Source: Pseudomonadota bacterium | GTDB taxonomy: Bacteria > Pseudomonadota > Gammaproteobacteria > Halothiobacillales > Halothiobacillaceae | Assembly: GCA_021795795.1 (NCBI GenBank) | Contig: JAJYPA010000463.1 | Span: 1 to 6,672 of the forward strand | Direction of reading: 5' to 3' | DNA length: 6,672 bases | Shown here: positions 1 through 6,672 of the stretch, piece after piece | Position numbering within the stretch: position 1 is the first letter of the stretch | Layout: every line of letters begins with the position of its first letter | Position numbers and translations under genes: made by a program | The notes under the pieces: generated by a model | Seen by the model: the letters and a program-made list of their open reading frames with translations, nothing else | Told to the model about the DNA's origin: nothing | Databases searched by the model: none

Positions 1-40
1 TCTGAATGTCCAGACCCCCCCCCCCGGTTTCCTCCTTCGT

Positions 41-109
41 GGCTTGTCCGACGCCTGCCCGAGGAGCCCTGCAGAGCCAGTCGCCGTGTGGGCAGGCATC
101 AGACAACCC
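41..109 (-). repeat. Long inverted repeat / stem-loop (20-nt arms, 29-nt loop)
   Basis: Arms at 41-60 and 90-109 are complementary at 17 of 20 positions. In minus-strand RNA two of the three mismatches become U-G pairs, giving 19 of 20 pairs with one G-G mismatch. In plus-strand RNA the same positions are C-A mismatches. The core pairs GCCTGCCC with GGGCAGGC. No U-tract follows on the minus strand; only CCCTTTACTT follows on the plus strand. It is therefore not a classic intrinsic terminator in either direction, though it could end or stabilise a minus-strand transcript. It might also be the structured end of a mobile element. Confidence 0.7.
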
Positions 110-110
110 T

Positions 111-257
111 TTACTTAAGCGGTCGTTCGAGGTTAGTGAGTATCATTTCCAGGAAGTTGATAGTATCAGCTTTGCTTTTCCGTACCACTTGAGGGCTGGG
201 GAGCATGGGATATTTCTGCGGACGAGCCGTCACGTCGTACCACAGATCGGCCTTTTC
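111..257 (-). pseudogene. Possible decayed coding fragment
   Basis: A minus-strand frame from 257 to a TAA at 111-113 encodes 48 residues containing EKADLWYDVTARP and ending DTINFLEMILTNLERPLK, which looks more protein-like than random sequence. It has no start codon near its beginning. The codon just before it (258-260) is TAA, and the same frame stays open for about 60 further codons upstream of that stop. This pattern would fit a gene interrupted by a nonsense change, but I recognise no family. The last stop lies one base before the 41-109 stem-loop. Confidence 0.2.
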
Positions 258-458: not shown

Positions 459-3092
459 TCACACAATGCCGGATGGCGAAAAATCTGGGGCAGCACCATT
501 TATCTCTGCAATCATTTCCTCGGCATCCGAATATTTTTCGGCAATGCGCGGAGAGATGACTATGCCGTGAAGTTGTGCGCGTAGGTCATCCCATCGACCA
601 CGTAGTACCTGCCAGTTTATCTCATCATACGTTCCCCGGAAAATAACTGGGCGAATTTCGATTCTAGGAAGGTCGCTATTCACTTGCTTATCAGCGATCA
701 CCTGATTCAGTTTTTGTTCCCACAAACTACCGATCCTATCGACTCGACCAATCTGCTGCTCAACCACGCCAGGATTCCATTCTGGGTGCAATAGCAAAAC
801 CGTACGACATGCCTTGTGAAGATTAAGCCCCTCACGACCCACTAACGATTGCGCGACCAATACCTTTGGGTAACCTTGCTTTCGATTAAAGGCCAATTGC
901 AAGAGGCGCCGAGTCTCTGGTTTTGTTTCCCCAAACATTAACCGCGCGTATCGACCTTCTGGGCGGTTGTATTCTTCGTGTAGCCTGATTTGGAGTTCAG
1001 CCCAGAGATCAGATGCTTCCACTTCATCCAACTGCCCATCCCCATTTTCATCACCTTTGTCACGATCACTTGCTGCCGCCACTAAATCAATAAAGGCCTG
1101 CGCAAAGTCGGACGACGTGGCATTCTCGGTGTTAGCCTGTACCAATTCTTGCATTGCTCGAGCAACTATTGCCAAGGCATGATCGTCGTTGCCTTGAACC
1201 TGTTTCGAATCCTCATTAGCTACTTTCTTAAAGACATCAAACAGCGCTCGCACACGTTTGTCTGGCTGCTTGCGGTTGAAATCTTCCTCGATGTGGCTAA
1301 TTAGCTTTCCCCGAATATCGCGGCGCTGATTCTCGATTTTTTGGTATTGTTTTGCGAGGGCATCATCCAGAACCTGGCGATCCAACTTTTCTTGCCTTTC
1401 CAACTGCCGATGAGCAGCAAGGATGGCATTCCAGTTATCGTTCTCATGCACTTTCGATTGTGGCCAGGGCAAATCTTCATCCAAGCACCGTAGCATCTCC
1501 CGAGCGTTGAGCAGTTGCACCAATGCCCGTAATGGGCGCGTGAACCGACCGAATGCCAGAACTTTTTCCCCTTGCCGACAAGTATCCTCAATTTCTTTAA
1601 CAGCGGCTAGAATCGCCGGGTGGTCAAATAACTCCGAGCCGTCGTTCTTCATGAACGGTTGGGCCATAACGTTCTGCCACCACTCAGCGCGTAGCCGACG
1701 CTTGAGATCTGCTTCTGCGCCACGCTGTGCAGTGATCTCAAGCACGCTATCATCCTCATTTTCTTCATGGCCATCTTTGTCATCGGAATGTAATTGATCA
1801 ATCAGCGCAGCAATGCCATGACCATTGCCTAAGGTTAGGCGCAGCCGCTTGGCAAGCGTACGATCGGATTGACGTGTAACAAACGACAACGCCTCAGCTG
1901 CGCATACAGCTCCCTTCCATTCGTAAGATAGTTGCGCTATATCGACTAGGATTTCCTTCTCGCGCCGGTAGGCGTGATAGCCCTTGCCAGATAAATTCTG
2001 AAATTTGATGACCGCAGGATCTTTCCGTTTATCACGTCGCAGCAGATAGTCATTTAGCGCCAGCTTGAATGCAGTGGCCGATTTTTTGAATTCCTTGCGC
2101 ACTTCTTTGTCACTCGGGCATTGCCTTACCCTGGCTACGGCTTGCACATAATTCGAAATAGCTGTAGTTGCTACCGCTTTCGATGCATCATCAACCCGGA
2201 TGCGTTCCAGCATTTGCGTCCATTGTGTCGCATCGAGCTCAACTGGCGTTGCGGTCATAGCTAGGCAGCGGGCATCGCCAGATTTCAGAACGACCTCAGT
2301 TAACAATCGATTTAGCCCACTGTCTTGCCCCCTGCTTTTGTGTGCCTCATCAACAATGACAAGATCAAATACACCGAGCCCAAGTCCGACTGCACGTTCT
2401 AGCCAGGGCCGTAATTGTGCGTTACACCCATATTCACCAACAGTCAGAGCACCAGGCCAAGGTGTCTTTTGAGCTAATTCTTCAATGAGTTTTCGAGTAG
2501 CGTGATTTTCTGGGTTGGCGCATATTGCACTGACGATGCTCTCCGCAGCTCGTTGAACCCACTTGTCGTGGAGCATGTCGTTATTGCAATAACCACGCGG
2601 CCAACGCCCGTTCAGTTGCTTTCGCCATCTGGCATATATTTCTGGGAGCAAAGCCCAGCGCCAAGGGACGCTGTTCTCTCCAAGCCGCCAGTTCGTGAAA
2701 GCATGAGACACAACTAGGGCCGACTCCTTAAACCACGGAGCATTCTCATCTTTGGTTTCCCATGCCTGCAAATATTCCCAGAGACGGCGCAAGATCGGCG
2801 GCGCATCGACTCCGGCTTTTCGTAATTCGTCGCTCCACTGATAGCCCAATCCAGGTGGCACCAGTATCGCAACCCGACCACCCGCGGCAATCACAGCCCG
2901 GGCGACCGCCACAGCTATTCGCGTCTTACCCATGCCAACTTCGTCCGCGATGATGACGCCGTTATTTGGCAATCGCTTGGCGAGTTCTCGAAGGCTCGCT
3001 GCTTGCCCATCGTTGAGTTCTATTGTTCGATCATCTGCAAGCCTGCAAAGCTTTTTTCCTACTTCTTTCCAGCCTCTGAACCCTTGACTCAT
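459..3092 (-). CDS. SNF2/RapA-like superfamily 2 DNA helicase/translocase
   Basis: An 877-residue ATPase with complete SF2 motifs: a Q-like segment near residue 30; motif I DEVGMGKT (50-57); Ia VAILVPPG (about 74); motif II VIVDEAH (245-251); motif III MTATP (279-283); motif IV near VLAFGRF (511-517); motif V SLVGREGLNL (749-758); motif VI QQIGRVDRIGS (779-789). The GRVDRIG form of motif VI and the WNP just before it resemble RapA/HepA-type SNF2 proteins, which translocate on double-stranded DNA rather than unwind it. Motifs IV and V are about 230 residues apart. The space holds long charged, probably coiled-coil helices (about 555-605) and a segment matching the 12-residue EF-hand loop (681-692). 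Another helical insertion lies between motif III and IV (about 300-490). No methyltransferase, nuclease or DUF1998-like tail is seen. ATG overlaps the PLD stop (ATGA). As last gene of the operon it is the likely motor that brings the PLD protein to its substrate. Confidence 0.97.
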   Translation of the reverse strand: MSQGFRGWKEVGKKLCRLADDRTIELNDGQAASLRELAKRLPNNGVIIADEVGMGKTRIAVAVARAVIAAGGRVAILVPPGLGYQWSDELRKAGVDAPPILRRLWEYLQAWETKDENAPWFKESALVVSHAFTNWRLGENSVPWRWALLPEIYARWRKQLNGRWPRGYCNNDMLHDKWVQRAAESIVSAICANPENHATRKLIEELAQKTPWPGALTVGEYGCNAQLRPWLERAVGLGLGVFDLVIVDEAHKSRGQDSGLNRLLTEVVLKSGDARCLAMTATPVELDATQWTQMLERIRVDDASKAVATTAISNYVQAVARVRQCPSDKEVRKEFKKSATAFKLALNDYLLRRDKRKDPAVIKFQNLSGKGYHAYRREKEILVDIAQLSYEWKGAVCAAEALSFVTRQSDRTLAKRLRLTLGNGHGIAALIDQLHSDDKDGHEENEDDSVLEITAQRGAEADLKRRLRAEWWQNVMAQPFMKNDGSELFDHPAILAAVKEIEDTCRQGEKVLAFGRFTRPLRALVQLLNAREMLRCLDEDLPWPQSKVHENDNWNAILAAHRQLERQEKLDRQVLDDALAKQYQKIENQRRDIRGKLISHIEEDFNRKQPDKRVRALFDVFKKVANEDSKQVQGNDDHALAIVARAMQELVQANTENATSSDFAQAFIDLVAAASDRDKGDENGDGQLDEVEASDLWAELQIRLHEEYNRPEGRYARLMFGETKPETRRLLQLAFNRKQGYPKVLVAQSLVGREGLNLHKACRTVLLLHPEWNPGVVEQQIGRVDRIGSLWEQKLNQVIADKQVNSDLPRIEIRPVIFRGTYDEINWQVLRGRWDDLRAQLHGIVISPRIAEKYSDAEEMIAEINGAAPDFSPSGIV

Positions 3093-5083
3093 TTCGCACC
3101 CCCAATCGGGCTCACTTCATTGACCTTCCAACTATTTTCAATCCTGAGCAACATATCGTCATACAGCTTTCCGGGCTTTGAGTCACCGGTTTCAGCAAAC
3201 GATGGGCGAAAAGACTGATGGTGTAACGCACTAAGTGGATTTAGTCCAAGTTTTTCACGGAAATATTTGACTGAAGCACTGTCGGCCGCTTGCCCCAACG
3301 TCTGTTCAAGGCGGTTGCACCAGACCACCCAATCCATTTCGTCGATTTCAGTTTGCTTGGCTGCGATGTTTTCAACTAGTTCCATCATTTGGCGTACTGG
3401 ATAACTGGTCGTTGGCACTGGTCGACGCTTCGACTGGGCCTTGCCTTCGTTTTCGTCATCTCCGTCATCTCCGCCGTCCTCATCCGGGGGCAGTGGAAAG
3501 TCAGCTAGCTGCCACCATGCCTCGTCGATATCGATAGTTGGCAACTGGGTGGCGGCAATACGCCCATATTGATCGACGACGGGTCTCTGCGTCTCAATCT
3601 GCTGTCCGTTTGCTTGCCACTGTATGCGAACTTGGCGGGGTTGAACTTCGTGCCATTGAATTCCTGTGTGAGTTTTTAAACAGGCTATTCCGGCTGAATC
3701 AAGCACTTCGAACTCGGTGCCGCTGGGTTCTCCTGCACGGAGTTCGCGCACGTCATCGGCTTCGTGCCATGTGAGCCAAGCAACAGGTGGCGCAATATAG
3801 ATGGCATCCCGTTGCTCCATGCCGCAACCGGCATTCAGCTTTGAAACGTCATCAATCTTATCGTCCCATTGAATGGGTAACAGGCTCGTCACCACCTGAT
3901 GCTCTGGGGTAGCCTCGTTTTTCTGCCAGCATAGCGAGTTCGGGGTAAACACAACGCCTGCTTCGAGGTTGCCATCATCAGCGCTCATCTTGTTGACGAA
4001 GCCTGGACTGGTCAAATTTCCTGAACCCAGATAAACCCAGGCACTGGTGCAGGCATTCGAATTGTCACGATAGTTAGCGCTGAACAAGAATTTCGCGTGC
4101 AAACTACGCCGCGCCCCTTCTCCGAACACAATTGCTGGAATAGCTGCAGGGCGAACCGTGATGCCACAGTCGTCGCGCAATGGCTTCACCGCTTTTGCAA
4201 TGGCTTGACAGGCATTTGGATTGACATAGAGGTCTACTTCCGGTTCCCGAGTCAGCAAGCCCTCATCACGAAGAGTCTTGAGCATTTCCAGTGGCACTTC
4301 AGGTGGCTTCTGGGGATCACCTGATGTTTCATAGAACCCGGACCCAATGGCCAGGTAATTGCGCTTTACCTCGCCATCTGCCTTGATTTTTTCAGGTAGT
4401 TGAGACAGCAGGGATTTGCTCCGATTGTCGAAGACCCTCGGCTGCCCTTGTGCCTTTGTAGAGCACGCATCGATCCAACTGCTGACCTGCTGAAGTGCAT
4501 TCATCGTCTCGCTGAGACGACCATGGACGGAAGCATGGAGCAACCGGGTGTCGAAAAGTTTCTGAATCCACGCCAATAGATCCCAGGCTGCCTTGACATC
4601 CGCGCAGTCTCGTTTGATATCAGCGTCCAGGTTACTGAGTGATTCGCTGGAGATATCGATCCGCCACATCAGATCCAAACTCTCCTCCAGCGTCTGCCGC
4701 GTCCAATTGCCTGTTGACACCAGCAAGCGTAATTGCCACTGACTGTGGTTCTCCTGATGGCGAAAACCTAGCAGAGCGACCTTGGCATGCAAAAGTCGAA
4801 ACGGCTTTTTCGCGTGATCTATGATCGGGAAATGCGCCACCCCTGGGGCATCCTGCAACGAAACAGGAGGGTTGCCCGGATCAAGCAACGCAACGAGAGC
4901 AATACGGCCTTGGTGGGCACGTTGCGAACGAGTGAGTCGAGTAAAGCGTTCAGTGGCGTCATCCAAAAATAACGCATCCGCCGAGTAGCCGCACAGCCAA
5001 CCAAAATGTCCGGTGTAGTCTGCTGGCGCATCAAAATGCTGTGCCAGCGACAGCGGCCTCAAGGATTCGCTATTGATGCTCAT
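3089..5083 (-). CDS. Phospholipase D superfamily protein (Tdp1-like HxK...N), putative nuclease
   Basis: A 664-residue soluble protein with two PLD half-sites. Site 1 is LLHAKVALL (H99, K101), followed by STGNW (N126). Site 2 is SLHAKFLF (H329, K331), followed by GSGNLTSPGF (N356). The canonical HKD aspartate is missing from both, and each has the downstream Asn seen in tyrosyl-DNA phosphodiesterases and many bacterial PLD-fold nucleases. The two sites normally form one active centre that attacks a phosphodiester through a covalent phospho-histidine, so a DNA- or RNA-cleaving or end-processing role is likely. The protein is longer than minimal PLD nucleases. A C-terminal region of about 250 residues includes a beta-rich part (about 425-520), an acidic Asp/Glu/Gly linker (534-546) and a helical tail. 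The start ATG overlaps the preceding stop (ATGA), with GGTGA just upstream. The 3' end overlaps the helicase gene in the same way. Lipid hydrolysis is unlikely given the absence of any export signal and the helicase neighbour. Confidence 0.95.
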   Translation of the reverse strand: MSINSESLRPLSLAQHFDAPADYTGHFGWLCGYSADALFLDDATERFTRLTRSQRAHQGRIALVALLDPGNPPVSLQDAPGVAHFPIIDHAKKPFRLLHAKVALLGFRHQENHSQWQLRLLVSTGNWTRQTLEESLDLMWRIDISSESLSNLDADIKRDCADVKAAWDLLAWIQKLFDTRLLHASVHGRLSETMNALQQVSSWIDACSTKAQGQPRVFDNRSKSLLSQLPEKIKADGEVKRNYLAIGSGFYETSGDPQKPPEVPLEMLKTLRDEGLLTREPEVDLYVNPNACQAIAKAVKPLRDDCGITVRPAAIPAIVFGEGARRSLHAKFLFSANYRDNSNACTSAWVYLGSGNLTSPGFVNKMSADDGNLEAGVVFTPNSLCWQKNEATPEHQVVTSLLPIQWDDKIDDVSKLNAGCGMEQRDAIYIAPPVAWLTWHEADDVRELRAGEPSGTEFEVLDSAGIACLKTHTGIQWHEVQPRQVRIQWQANGQQIETQRPVVDQYGRIAATQLPTIDIDEAWWQLADFPLPPDEDGGDDGDDENEGKAQSKRRPVPTTSYPVRQMMELVENIAAKQTEIDEMDWVVWCNRLEQTLGQAADSASVKYFREKLGLNPLSALHHQSFRPSFAETGDSKPGKLYDDMLLRIENSWKVNEVSPIGGAK

Positions 5084-6372
5084 GCTTCACCCCCGTCTGC
5101 GTTCGGATTTAGCCATTCGTCCAGCTCACCGTGCATGTCGAGATTCAAAAGATAGAGATTTCGCACGCGGTAGGAGATGCCTTCAGGTAATGGAATGCCA
5201 CTCGCTTGTGGCGTTTCTTGACCTTCATTGTCGGCACCGACCTGCCTTATCGAACCACGAAATGCCGGCCCTGGCTTGATTTCATCGCCTACTAAGCGCA
5301 GAACATACCCGTCTCGATCAACCAGGGTTCGCAAAATGCTGGACGGATCGGTAGTTACGCACTCACGACAGAATTTGTTGGCTTCTTCATCCGCGTGTTT
5401 GAACGCCAGGTATTCTCTTGCTGCGGCTTTCAGCTTGTCAATCGCAGGTTTCAGCGCCTCAGGAATTCGCGCCCTCAAGGAACAGGACTGCGCGACTGTC
5501 TGGCTTCCGATGTGGGCCTCTGCTGCATCAAGAGTAGCAATTGCAGCTTCACGTGCCTCAAAAAACAAGGCTCCTGCCTGGAGGTCGTGCCAATGCTCTT
5601 CTGAAATTTCTTGCGGACGGTGAGCCCACGTCAGCCTACTTGGCCTACTATTCCGAATTGCCTCGACCCAGGCCAGTACGTTGCTTCGCCGTTTCTTGTC
5701 CTCATTGGGTTCATTCCCTCCTTGGATTAGTCTTTCGCGAAGTAATGGAATTGCTTCATCGGATAGCCGGTTGAGTGGCGACAGAACCTGTCGAAGTGCA
5801 TCTGTATCGACGCGGTCATCCTTCATCTGCGCCCACCAAGTTAGATGATCGATGACCGCTCTGTTATACGGACGATATCCCCCTGATGCCCTATCGATAA
5901 AGGATCTTCCTTCTTCCGCGCAACAAAATGCATTGAATCGTGCGCTGTCGGACTCTACAAAGCCAAGTGCGGGCAAGGCTTGGCCGGTCGCCATTCGCAT
6001 GGGCTGCGCGACGTAGAAATTTCGCTGACGCACCCGCCGGAAACTGAAATCATCTTTGCCTTGCAACTTGGTATTTCCGCGCAAGCGACTGTCACTGCTC
6101 CACCCATTGCTTTTGAAGGCCAGCCAACAGGCCAGCGCTTCAATCGCATTCGCCACTTCAATATTCTGCACTTTCACACCTTGGCTACGCGCAGCTTCCG
6201 CTACAGCGACACCAAGCGTCGCAAGTAACAGCTGCTTGCCGTACCAGACGCCACCTAACCCGGGAACAGCAAGATCATTAAAGCGACGCACCGACGCGCC
6301 CAGTCCAAGTGTTCTAGTACGGCGCCCATTCGGCAAAAATTCTGGCCCCAGAAGGCCCCATGTACTTTCCAT
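5080..6372 (-). CDS. Unrecognised protein, first gene of the helicase-PLD operon
   Basis: This is an intact gene of 430 codons that I cannot assign to a family. The ATG at 6372 is preferred: AAGGAG lies 9 nt upstream. An in-frame TTG at 6375, immediately before it, is an alternative start. Seen in the sequence: no signal peptide or membrane helix; a glycine- and arginine-rich N-terminus (about residues 8-45); a segment at about 95-130 with many basic and aromatic residues; a Cys-Cys pair near 150; a mostly helical, charged stretch at about 255-340 ending in a single C-x2-C near 335; and a C-terminal part (about 350-425) that looks like a small beta-rich domain followed by a conserved-looking YRVRNLYLLNLD segment. 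No ATPase, nuclease or methyltransferase motif is visible. Its last bases overlap the start of the PLD gene (ATGA), so the two are probably translationally coupled. By position it is likely the system-specific subunit (target recognition, scaffold or control), but this is inference only. Confidence 0.93.
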   Translation of the reverse strand: MESTWGLLGPEFLPNGRRTRTLGLGASVRRFNDLAVPGLGGVWYGKQLLLATLGVAVAEAARSQGVKVQNIEVANAIEALACWLAFKSNGWSSDSRLRGNTKLQGKDDFSFRRVRQRNFYVAQPMRMATGQALPALGFVESDSARFNAFCCAEEGRSFIDRASGGYRPYNRAVIDHLTWWAQMKDDRVDTDALRQVLSPLNRLSDEAIPLLRERLIQGGNEPNEDKKRRSNVLAWVEAIRNSRPSRLTWAHRPQEISEEHWHDLQAGALFFEAREAAIATLDAAEAHIGSQTVAQSCSLRARIPEALKPAIDKLKAAAREYLAFKHADEEANKFCRECVTTDPSSILRTLVDRDGYVLRLVGDEIKPGPAFRGSIRQVGADNEGQETPQASGIPLPEGISYRVRNLYLLNLDMHGELDEWLNPNADGGEA

Positions 6373-6375
6373 CAA

Positions 6376-6513
6376 TCAGATCTCCTTCGTTACGGCTTGG
6401 CCGCGACTATGTGGGAGCCGCCGTGCATCAGCAATCACATCCCCAAACCTGCGCACCCACCACTCCAGCATGGCGCTATCGACGACCTCAGCCGTGATTT
6501 CAAGTTGCCCGTC
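6376..6513 (-). pseudogene. 3' remnant of a WYL-domain transcriptional regulator
   Basis: The last 45 codons of a reading frame end in TGA at 6376-6378, 3 nt before the ATG of the first operon gene. The translation contains ITAEVVDSAMLEWWVRRFGD, which matches the C-terminal extension of WYL regulators: a beta strand, then a D-s-x-L-x-x-W-x-x-x-F-G-D helix and turn. Residues after it (RRLPHSRGQAV) fit the usual tail. Upstream in the same frame are TAG stops at 6514-6516 and 6523-6525. The winged-helix DNA-binding domain and WYL core are therefore missing, although such regulators usually have about 300 residues. WYL regulators such as BrxR and CapW commonly control defence operons, so this is probably the decapitated former regulator of the operon. 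The break may be an insertion or deletion junction. Alternatively the tail could be expressed from an internal ATG, but a functional product is unlikely. Confidence 0.75.
6382..6387 (-). promoter_or_regulatory. Ribosome binding site of the first operon gene
   Basis: AAGGAG lies inside the last codons of the WYL remnant, 9 nt from the ATG at 6372 and 6 nt from the alternative TTG at 6375. It is the strongest Shine-Dalgarno-like site in the operon. It suggests that the first gene starts efficiently by itself while the two later genes rely partly on coupling through ATGA overlaps. Confidence 0.7.
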
Positions 6514-6588: not shown

Positions 6589-6672
6589 TTAGGCGGCGTC
6601 CTGTTGGTCCCCCGGCAGGGTTTCATTAGCCGGTAATCCATCGGTGAATTTTACCCCCGCAAACAGATCGCG
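6589..6672 (-). CDS. Partial C-terminus of an unidentified gene at the window edge
   Basis: A reading frame open from the window edge ends in TAA at 6589-6591. It encodes 27 residues beginning RDLFAGVKFTDGL and ending in a Gln/Asp/Ala-rich tail. The composition looks like a soluble protein C-terminus. I do not recognise it: a transposase tail or a small antitoxin-like protein are both possible. It reads in the same direction as the operon. Only 84 nt are visible, so whether it is coding is uncertain. Confidence 0.4.
   Translation of the reverse strand, partial: RDLFAGVKFTDGLPANETLPGDQQDAA

Follow-up and report, generated by a model that had tools for sequence, protein, structure and literature searches.

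A linked operon encoding a helical protein of no recognised family, a PLD-type protein and an SNF2 translocase: a candidate antiviral system akin to Azaca and PDC-M27

Our analysis of a 6,672-nucleotide stretch of DNA (the window) from a Pseudomonadota bacterium of the family Halothiobacillaceae (contig JAJYPA010000463.1, assembly GCA_021795795.1) centres on three intact open reading frames (ORFs) on the minus strand, which form an operon in the order X, PLD, SNF2. This operon probably encodes a DNA-targeting complex of the Azaca kind, directed against phages or other mobile elements, and would stand beside Azaca and PDC-M27 as a third, uncatalogued type. X (5080..6372) takes the position that ZacA holds in Azaca and PDC-M27A in PDC-M27, and encodes a protein of 430 residues, largely helical and assigned to no known family; PLD (3089..5083) encodes a ZacB-like protein of 664 residues with two HxK...N half-sites, and SNF2 (459..3092) an SF2 translocase of 877 residues. 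The stop codon of X overlaps the start codon of PLD in the four bases ATGA (minus strand, 5080..5083), and the same arrangement joins PLD to SNF2 (minus strand, 3089..3092), confirming the ORFs and overlaps described in a first-pass annotation of this DNA, made by a model from the letters and their ORFs. For X, the ORF caller places a TTG start at 6375 (ORF 5080-6375), and the ATG at 6372 is preceded by AGGAG. The triad makes up the sole intact genes of the locus within the window.

The three genes are closely linked wherever X is found in plasmids. A tblastn search of 72,556 plasmid records detected X in seven and PLD in those same seven; SNF2 matched 46 records, and the seven in which at least 80% of the query was covered were again the X/PLD records. 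Fifteen distinct loci were examined across all sources, counting the window, and 14 of them hold the genes in the order X-PLD-SNF2 (the window, L001, L002, L004-L010, L029, L032, L033, which ends within SNF2, and L039). Only L040 departs from this order: behind its truncated X come ORFs that read as transposase-like, and neither PLD nor SNF2 has a match there. A plasmid of Novosphingobium resinovorum (L007) has its PLD gene split by about 2.5 kb (10575-13063) that, by ORF reading, resembles an IS21-type element. We left out of the counts a record titled Planctomycetota (L003), since over 6731 bases it shares 99.985% identity with a Lysobacterales contig (L002), probably through contamination of one of the two assemblies. 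A scatter of homologues without linkage, which the first-pass annotation had named as counting against its proposal of an antiviral system, is therefore not what we found.

Among genomes, X is rare: it was found in 2 of 369 class-wide genomes and in 3 of 398 (one judged false), 1 of 300, 2 of 250 and 2 of 246 in further sets, every count including the centre genome among its positives. A match in genome G723 (L031/L034) was counted as false, as it comprises 75 positions inside another ORF and tblastn detects no X, PLD or SNF2 there. Phage records gave no X at E<=1e-5, and viral contigs gave one triad locus, L032. That contig, labelled 'viral', carries in a row between 5126 and 21171 an AAA gene, a WYL gene, a gene for a 522-residue protein, the triad, and PD-(D/E)XK and UvrD genes. 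A near-match DNA search of E. coli genomes returned no near match to the window.

The relationship with Azaca is visible in the second and third genes. When PLD was compared with the 5027 PADLOC models at E<=1, its sole match was ZacB (1.1e-9, 35.7 bits), and hhalign aligned the PLD set with the ZacB set at 94.9% probability (E 4.6e-8), over a span comprising the non-catalytic N-terminal region and the first HxK site. Both half-sites (H99/K101/N126 and H329/K331/N356), together with E374, are invariant in 9/9 aligned sequences, and the window protein has no Asp at the HxKx4D place. The first-pass annotation had called this protein a Tdp1-like PLD. The part of that description that stands is the pair of HKN half-sites, a pattern that we take to be a mark of Tdp1; a family match does not, since the Tdp1 Pfam family gave no row at E<=1 and Pfam PLDc_2 stayed below its cut-off (E 5e-4, 20.3 bits vs 27 required). 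Searching PDB sequences with PLD returned chance antibody rows, with a best E of 0.05 among 60 of the 78 matches.

The SNF2 protein has the motifs ADEVGMGKT, DEAH, TATP and QQIGRVDR, scores above cut-off with Pfam Helicase_C, ResIII and SNF2-rel, and finds in RapA its best PDB sequence match (6e-7), all in keeping with the RapA-like SNF2 ATPase seen at first pass. The PADLOC models that match it are, by first appearance, PDC-M27C (1.5e-19), DrmD (4.1e-16), BrxH and ZacC (7.9e-12; 42.6 bits), and hhalign pairs the SNF2 set with the ZacC set at 98.7% (E 3.9e-16). The nearest relatives are not DISARM, with its DrmC, or Mokosh, the comparators proposed in the first-pass annotation: the only PADLOC match of PLD is ZacB, and the gene order is that of Azaca and PDC-M27. 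A separate observation concerns the wider set of 46 SNF2 plasmid matches. Among the 25 of these listed, the 15 rows from Klebsiella or Raoultella cover only the C-terminal residues 793-873 (81 residues), at 47% identity, a piece that looks like either a separate domain or what is left of an SNF2 gene.

In agreement with the earlier description of one protein of no recognised family, X remained without a match at E<=1 in both PADLOC and Pfam, and NCBIfam gave a single chance-level row (E 0.23). Of 7997 candidates scored, 892 proved to be relatives of X at E<=1e-3, which places the operon far beyond chance. A precomputed Pfam domain is found in 0 of the 120 relatives listed, of the 892, so that this group of proteins has been overlooked by annotation based on family models. 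The AlphaFold model of X has a pLDDT of 87 and a pTM of 0.86; Foldseek matched it to nothing in PDB or BFVD at E<=0.001, and a PDB sequence search with X profiles found no match.

An explanation that would remove the need for a separate type is that X is a strongly diverged ZacA and the operon a diverged Azaca, to which we give slightly less than an even chance. X and ZacA occupy the same slot and are similar in length; each model has a long helix at its centre (33 and 31 residues), and short motifs match at corresponding places in the N-terminal and C-terminal parts. With our own profile aligner at full secondary-structure weight, the true X-ZacA score was reached by 10/200 block-permuted, 0/100 reversed and 0/200 residue-shuffled controls. 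At half weight, however, 48/200 block-permuted controls reached it (with 0/100 reversed and 2/200 residue-shuffled), and without secondary structure 128/200, 22/100 and 55/200 did so, respectively. The weights were set by hand, residues were shuffled within secondary-structure class, and rotated controls, which partly kept the true alignment, were not used; the scores that take secondary structure into account are suggestive at most. The standard comparisons point the other way. The hhalign probability of X against ZacA was below 1%, with a local score of 18.2 that 6/40 column-shuffled alignments (maximum 22.7) and also the reversed one (19.4) exceeded; the best E from hmmsearch was 0.023 one way round and 0.27 the other, deeper alignments doing no better, and neither the PADLOC ZacA model nor Pfam models matched X. 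On these results the identification of X as a ZacA by sequence was rejected, and homology between the two is unproven. As for structure, Foldseek found no match for ZacA in BFVD at E<=0.001, VIA-align of X and ZacA gave weak rows with the MukBEF chain 7nz2_C1 common to both lists, and a PDB sequence search with the ZacA profile gave one chance row.

The surroundings of the triad also connect the three systems. A pair of PD-(D/E)XK and UvrD/AddA-like genes (AddAB-like) directly adjoins 6 of 14 X-type triads: it precedes the triad in L005, L006, L007 and L010 and follows it in L008 and L032; L032 apart, these are all five alphaproteobacterial plasmid loci. Such a pair also lies directly before ZacA-ZacB-ZacC in Bradyrhizobium sp. 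195 (L046), whose UvrD protein and its L005 counterpart are relatives (29% over 560 residues). AAA genes and WYL genes are both present in L002, L004, L005, L009, L032 and Fuscovulum (L010 together with the bases immediately preceding it), with weaker matches in L039, and the AAA proteins of L002, L004, L009 and L032 score with IetA models. DUF2779 proteins, Cas4-like by PADLOC (2.5e-6), are encoded in L002, L029 and L039. In L002 the X-type triad is preceded by an AAA-DUF2779-WYL cassette, and in Rhodoferax antarcticus (L041) a cassette 69%, 66% and 68% identical to it, gene by gene, is followed by PDC-M27A, M27B and M27C; in the Azaca locus L026, an AAA gene (42% identity, nearly full length) and a WYL gene (35%) adjoin divergently. 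Relatives of the AAA protein were found at E<=1e-30 in 18 plasmid records, five of which belong to the seven X-type triad records and one to M27. DUF2779 relatives occur in 29 plasmid records at E<=1e-20, with no X-type record among the matches listed; we looked at five of them (L041, L045, L047, L048, L049). One, from Diaphorobacter (L045, 11890-16624), has the AAA-DUF2779-WYL cassette in full, with 63-73% identity to L002, and no triad in the stretch read; the cassette may therefore serve some separate function. These neighbours are shared between triads of different types, but not exclusive to them. Individual loci adjoin genes of other defence systems: L006 has the BREX genes PglZ and BrxL as well as a reverse transcriptase of the defence type, and L007 has BrxL. 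L004 adjoins a NERD+UvrD protein. Linkage, carriage on plasmids and the defence neighbours at some loci support the view of the triad as a candidate antiviral system.

Several observations weigh against an Azaca-like defence complex. On SNF2, the PDC-M27C and DrmD models outscore ZacC, and the match of the SNF2 set with the L041 PDC-M27C protein (99.2%, E 3.2e-19) is comparable to that with the ZacC set; because of this near equality the helicase by itself does not single out Azaca, and ties the triad to both systems. X has no detectable sequence relation to ZacA or to PDC-M27A. The AddAB-like pair was present at just one of seven Azaca loci examined, and the PD-(D/E)XK protein there is not clearly homologous to the X-type one (hhalign 2%). 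When seven of the other 12 AAA records (L042, L043, L044, L045, L048, L049, L050) were inspected by tblastn over about 12 kb on each side, none contained any triad; since the cassette or parts of it occur without a triad at all of these loci, its presence proves no functional link. Finally, two triads have housekeeping-type flanks and no accessory genes: that of L001 (Ferrovum) sits between GMP-synthase/IMPDH/Obg-type and TolB-type genes, and that of L033 lies beside genes that read, from their ORFs and without a family scan, like RNase E and pseudouridine synthase. Such flanks leave some doubt, though they are compatible with an inserted island. The first-pass annotation had named a housekeeping DNA-repair context in most genomes as evidence against its proposal; housekeeping-type flanks were seen at these two loci.

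Those two loci also belong to the case for a different function, in which a Tdp1-like PLD and a RapA/SNF2 protein would act as a DNA-repair or end-processing module in the maintenance of plasmids or chromosomes rather than in defence. The HKN-type half-sites, RapA as the best PDB match of SNF2 and the AddAB-like neighbours at some loci would all suit such a module. Yet X is rare and patchy (the 2 of 369 class-wide genomes include the centre genome), the genes are carried on plasmids and adjoin BREX, reverse transcriptase and WYL genes at some loci, and the only PADLOC relative of PLD comes from a named defence system; we therefore consider a repair role improbable. That the operon is a DISARM- or Mokosh-type system is far less probable still. 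The DrmD models do match SNF2, but no DrmC or Mokosh model matches PLD (the PADLOC library presumably has models for both), and DrmA, DrmB and a methyltransferase are absent from the triad and from the incomplete annotation of L004, L005, L009 and L010, so that gene content contradicts membership. The absence of DUF1998, methyltransferase and PglZ partners reported at first pass holds for the triad itself.

Taking the triad as a defence complex akin to Azaca, we infer that its three products act together on DNA. The helical X could bind or recognise DNA and hold the complex together, SNF2 would translocate on double-stranded DNA using ATP, and the PLD protein, with its two half-sites, would cut DNA upon engagement or stalling of the motor. 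Where they are present, the AddAB-like pair, or the AAA ATPase with the Cas4-like DUF2779 protein, may process the cut DNA, and the WYL protein may regulate the locus. Since the triad has no methyltransferase, discrimination would more likely depend on DNA structure or state than on methylation, which is the least supported step of this scheme.

A third type, missing from the catalogues but alike in slot order and neighbours, suggests that all three systems (Azaca, PDC-M27 and the X-type triad) may be variants of one machine with an exchanged first subunit. A broader version of this idea is that a helical recognition protein, a PLD nuclease and an SNF2 motor form a general, exchangeable immune core, served by no fewer than three recognition subunits that look unrelated (ZacA, PDC-M27A and X) and by shared accessory cassettes, and that X represents a DNA-recognition subunit of a new class, possibly folded like the recognition domains of FokI and N.BspD6I, that sets the target; we regard this version as speculative and rather unlikely. 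The exchange of subunits makes a testable prediction as to which of them carries specificity, and nature provides three variants to compare.

The rest of the window holds few other features. Upstream of X, on the minus strand at 6433..6513, lie 27 residues that are 81% identical to the L002 WYL gene. The first-pass annotation had read a WYL regulator tail here; the homology to WYL is real, and the tail is a disrupted relic of a regulator C-terminus, decayed and broken in frame, with stops immediately upstream of the 27 aligned residues and about 12 further residues in another frame. From the relic to the end of the window at 6672 there is no WYL alignment above chance level, and between 6350 and 6672 no promoter- or terminator-like site was found. 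Rfam gave no match to the window at gathering scores. Downstream of SNF2 is a segment of about 100 bases (window 18-126), also without an Rfam match, that matches unannotated plasmid stretches of Acidithiobacillus caldus (86%), Methylobacter (77%) and Methylomonas (78%), and is possibly the end of a mobile element.

A full-text search of the literature, judged by titles and the starts of abstracts, brought up no account that we recognised as describing this triad, and no clear assignment to an already characterised system, which the first-pass annotation had named as counting against its proposal, emerged. Of the systems that combine comparable activities, Hachiman is given in a passage of a Cell paper as a nuclease and a helicase encoded by two genes, HamA and HamB (PMC12278908); compared by that description, which names no PLD protein, it differs from the triad in gene number. 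DISARM resembles the triad in including an SNF2-type helicase, DrmD (the NCBIfam name), and its DrmC is described in another source as a PLD nuclease (PMC12458937). It is unlike the triad in that the operon contains no DrmA, DrmB (DUF1998) or methyltransferase, in a window that ends 300 bases upstream of X, and in that the PLD protein has no DrmC match.

PDC-M27, a phage defence candidate in PADLOC, is closer: it has a protein of unknown kind, a PLD protein and an SNF2 helicase in the same order, and its helicase and ZacC are about equally close to the SNF2 protein of the window. However, the PDC-M27A and M27B models do not match X and PLD of the window, the M27A protein of L041 gives nothing against the X profile, and the M27B protein of that locus shows only slight similarity to the PLD set of the X-type loci (hmmsearch E 0.005, hhalign 32%).

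Azaca itself (PADLOC PDLC03828-03830) was reportedly named in a 2022 paper. In later sources, a table of a 2023 review places it, with Mokosh, among systems having a PLD-like domain (PMC10952713), the same Cell paper counts ZacC among proteins with SF1/SF2 helicase domains (PMC12278908), and a table of a 2026 review gives it as a system of unknown mechanism (PMC12926258). We found ZacA in 7 of the 369 genomes, one of them unverified (G051, E 1.2e-4). Six genomic loci (L023-L028) were fetched by ZacA and their gene order checked with the PADLOC-confirmed proteins of the plasmid locus L046 as queries; ZacA-ZacB-ZacC order was present in 6/6 and in the plasmid locus, with the ZacC of L027 split between frames. 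The triad shares with Azaca three genes in the same order, a PLD protein with two HxK...N half-sites, an SNF2-type helicase in last place, and first and second genes of similar length. It differs in the size of the helicase (877 residues, against about 1043-1131 for ZacC) and in the PADLOC ZacB and ZacC scores, which are 35.7 and 42.6 bits in the window vs 570 and 1135 in a true member. The second gene is thus of the ZacB type, though distantly, whereas X is not recognised as the first gene, ZacA, whose relatives carry the Pfam domain PF19888 (DUF6361). Judged by this first gene the operon is not a member of Azaca; it most likely works like one.

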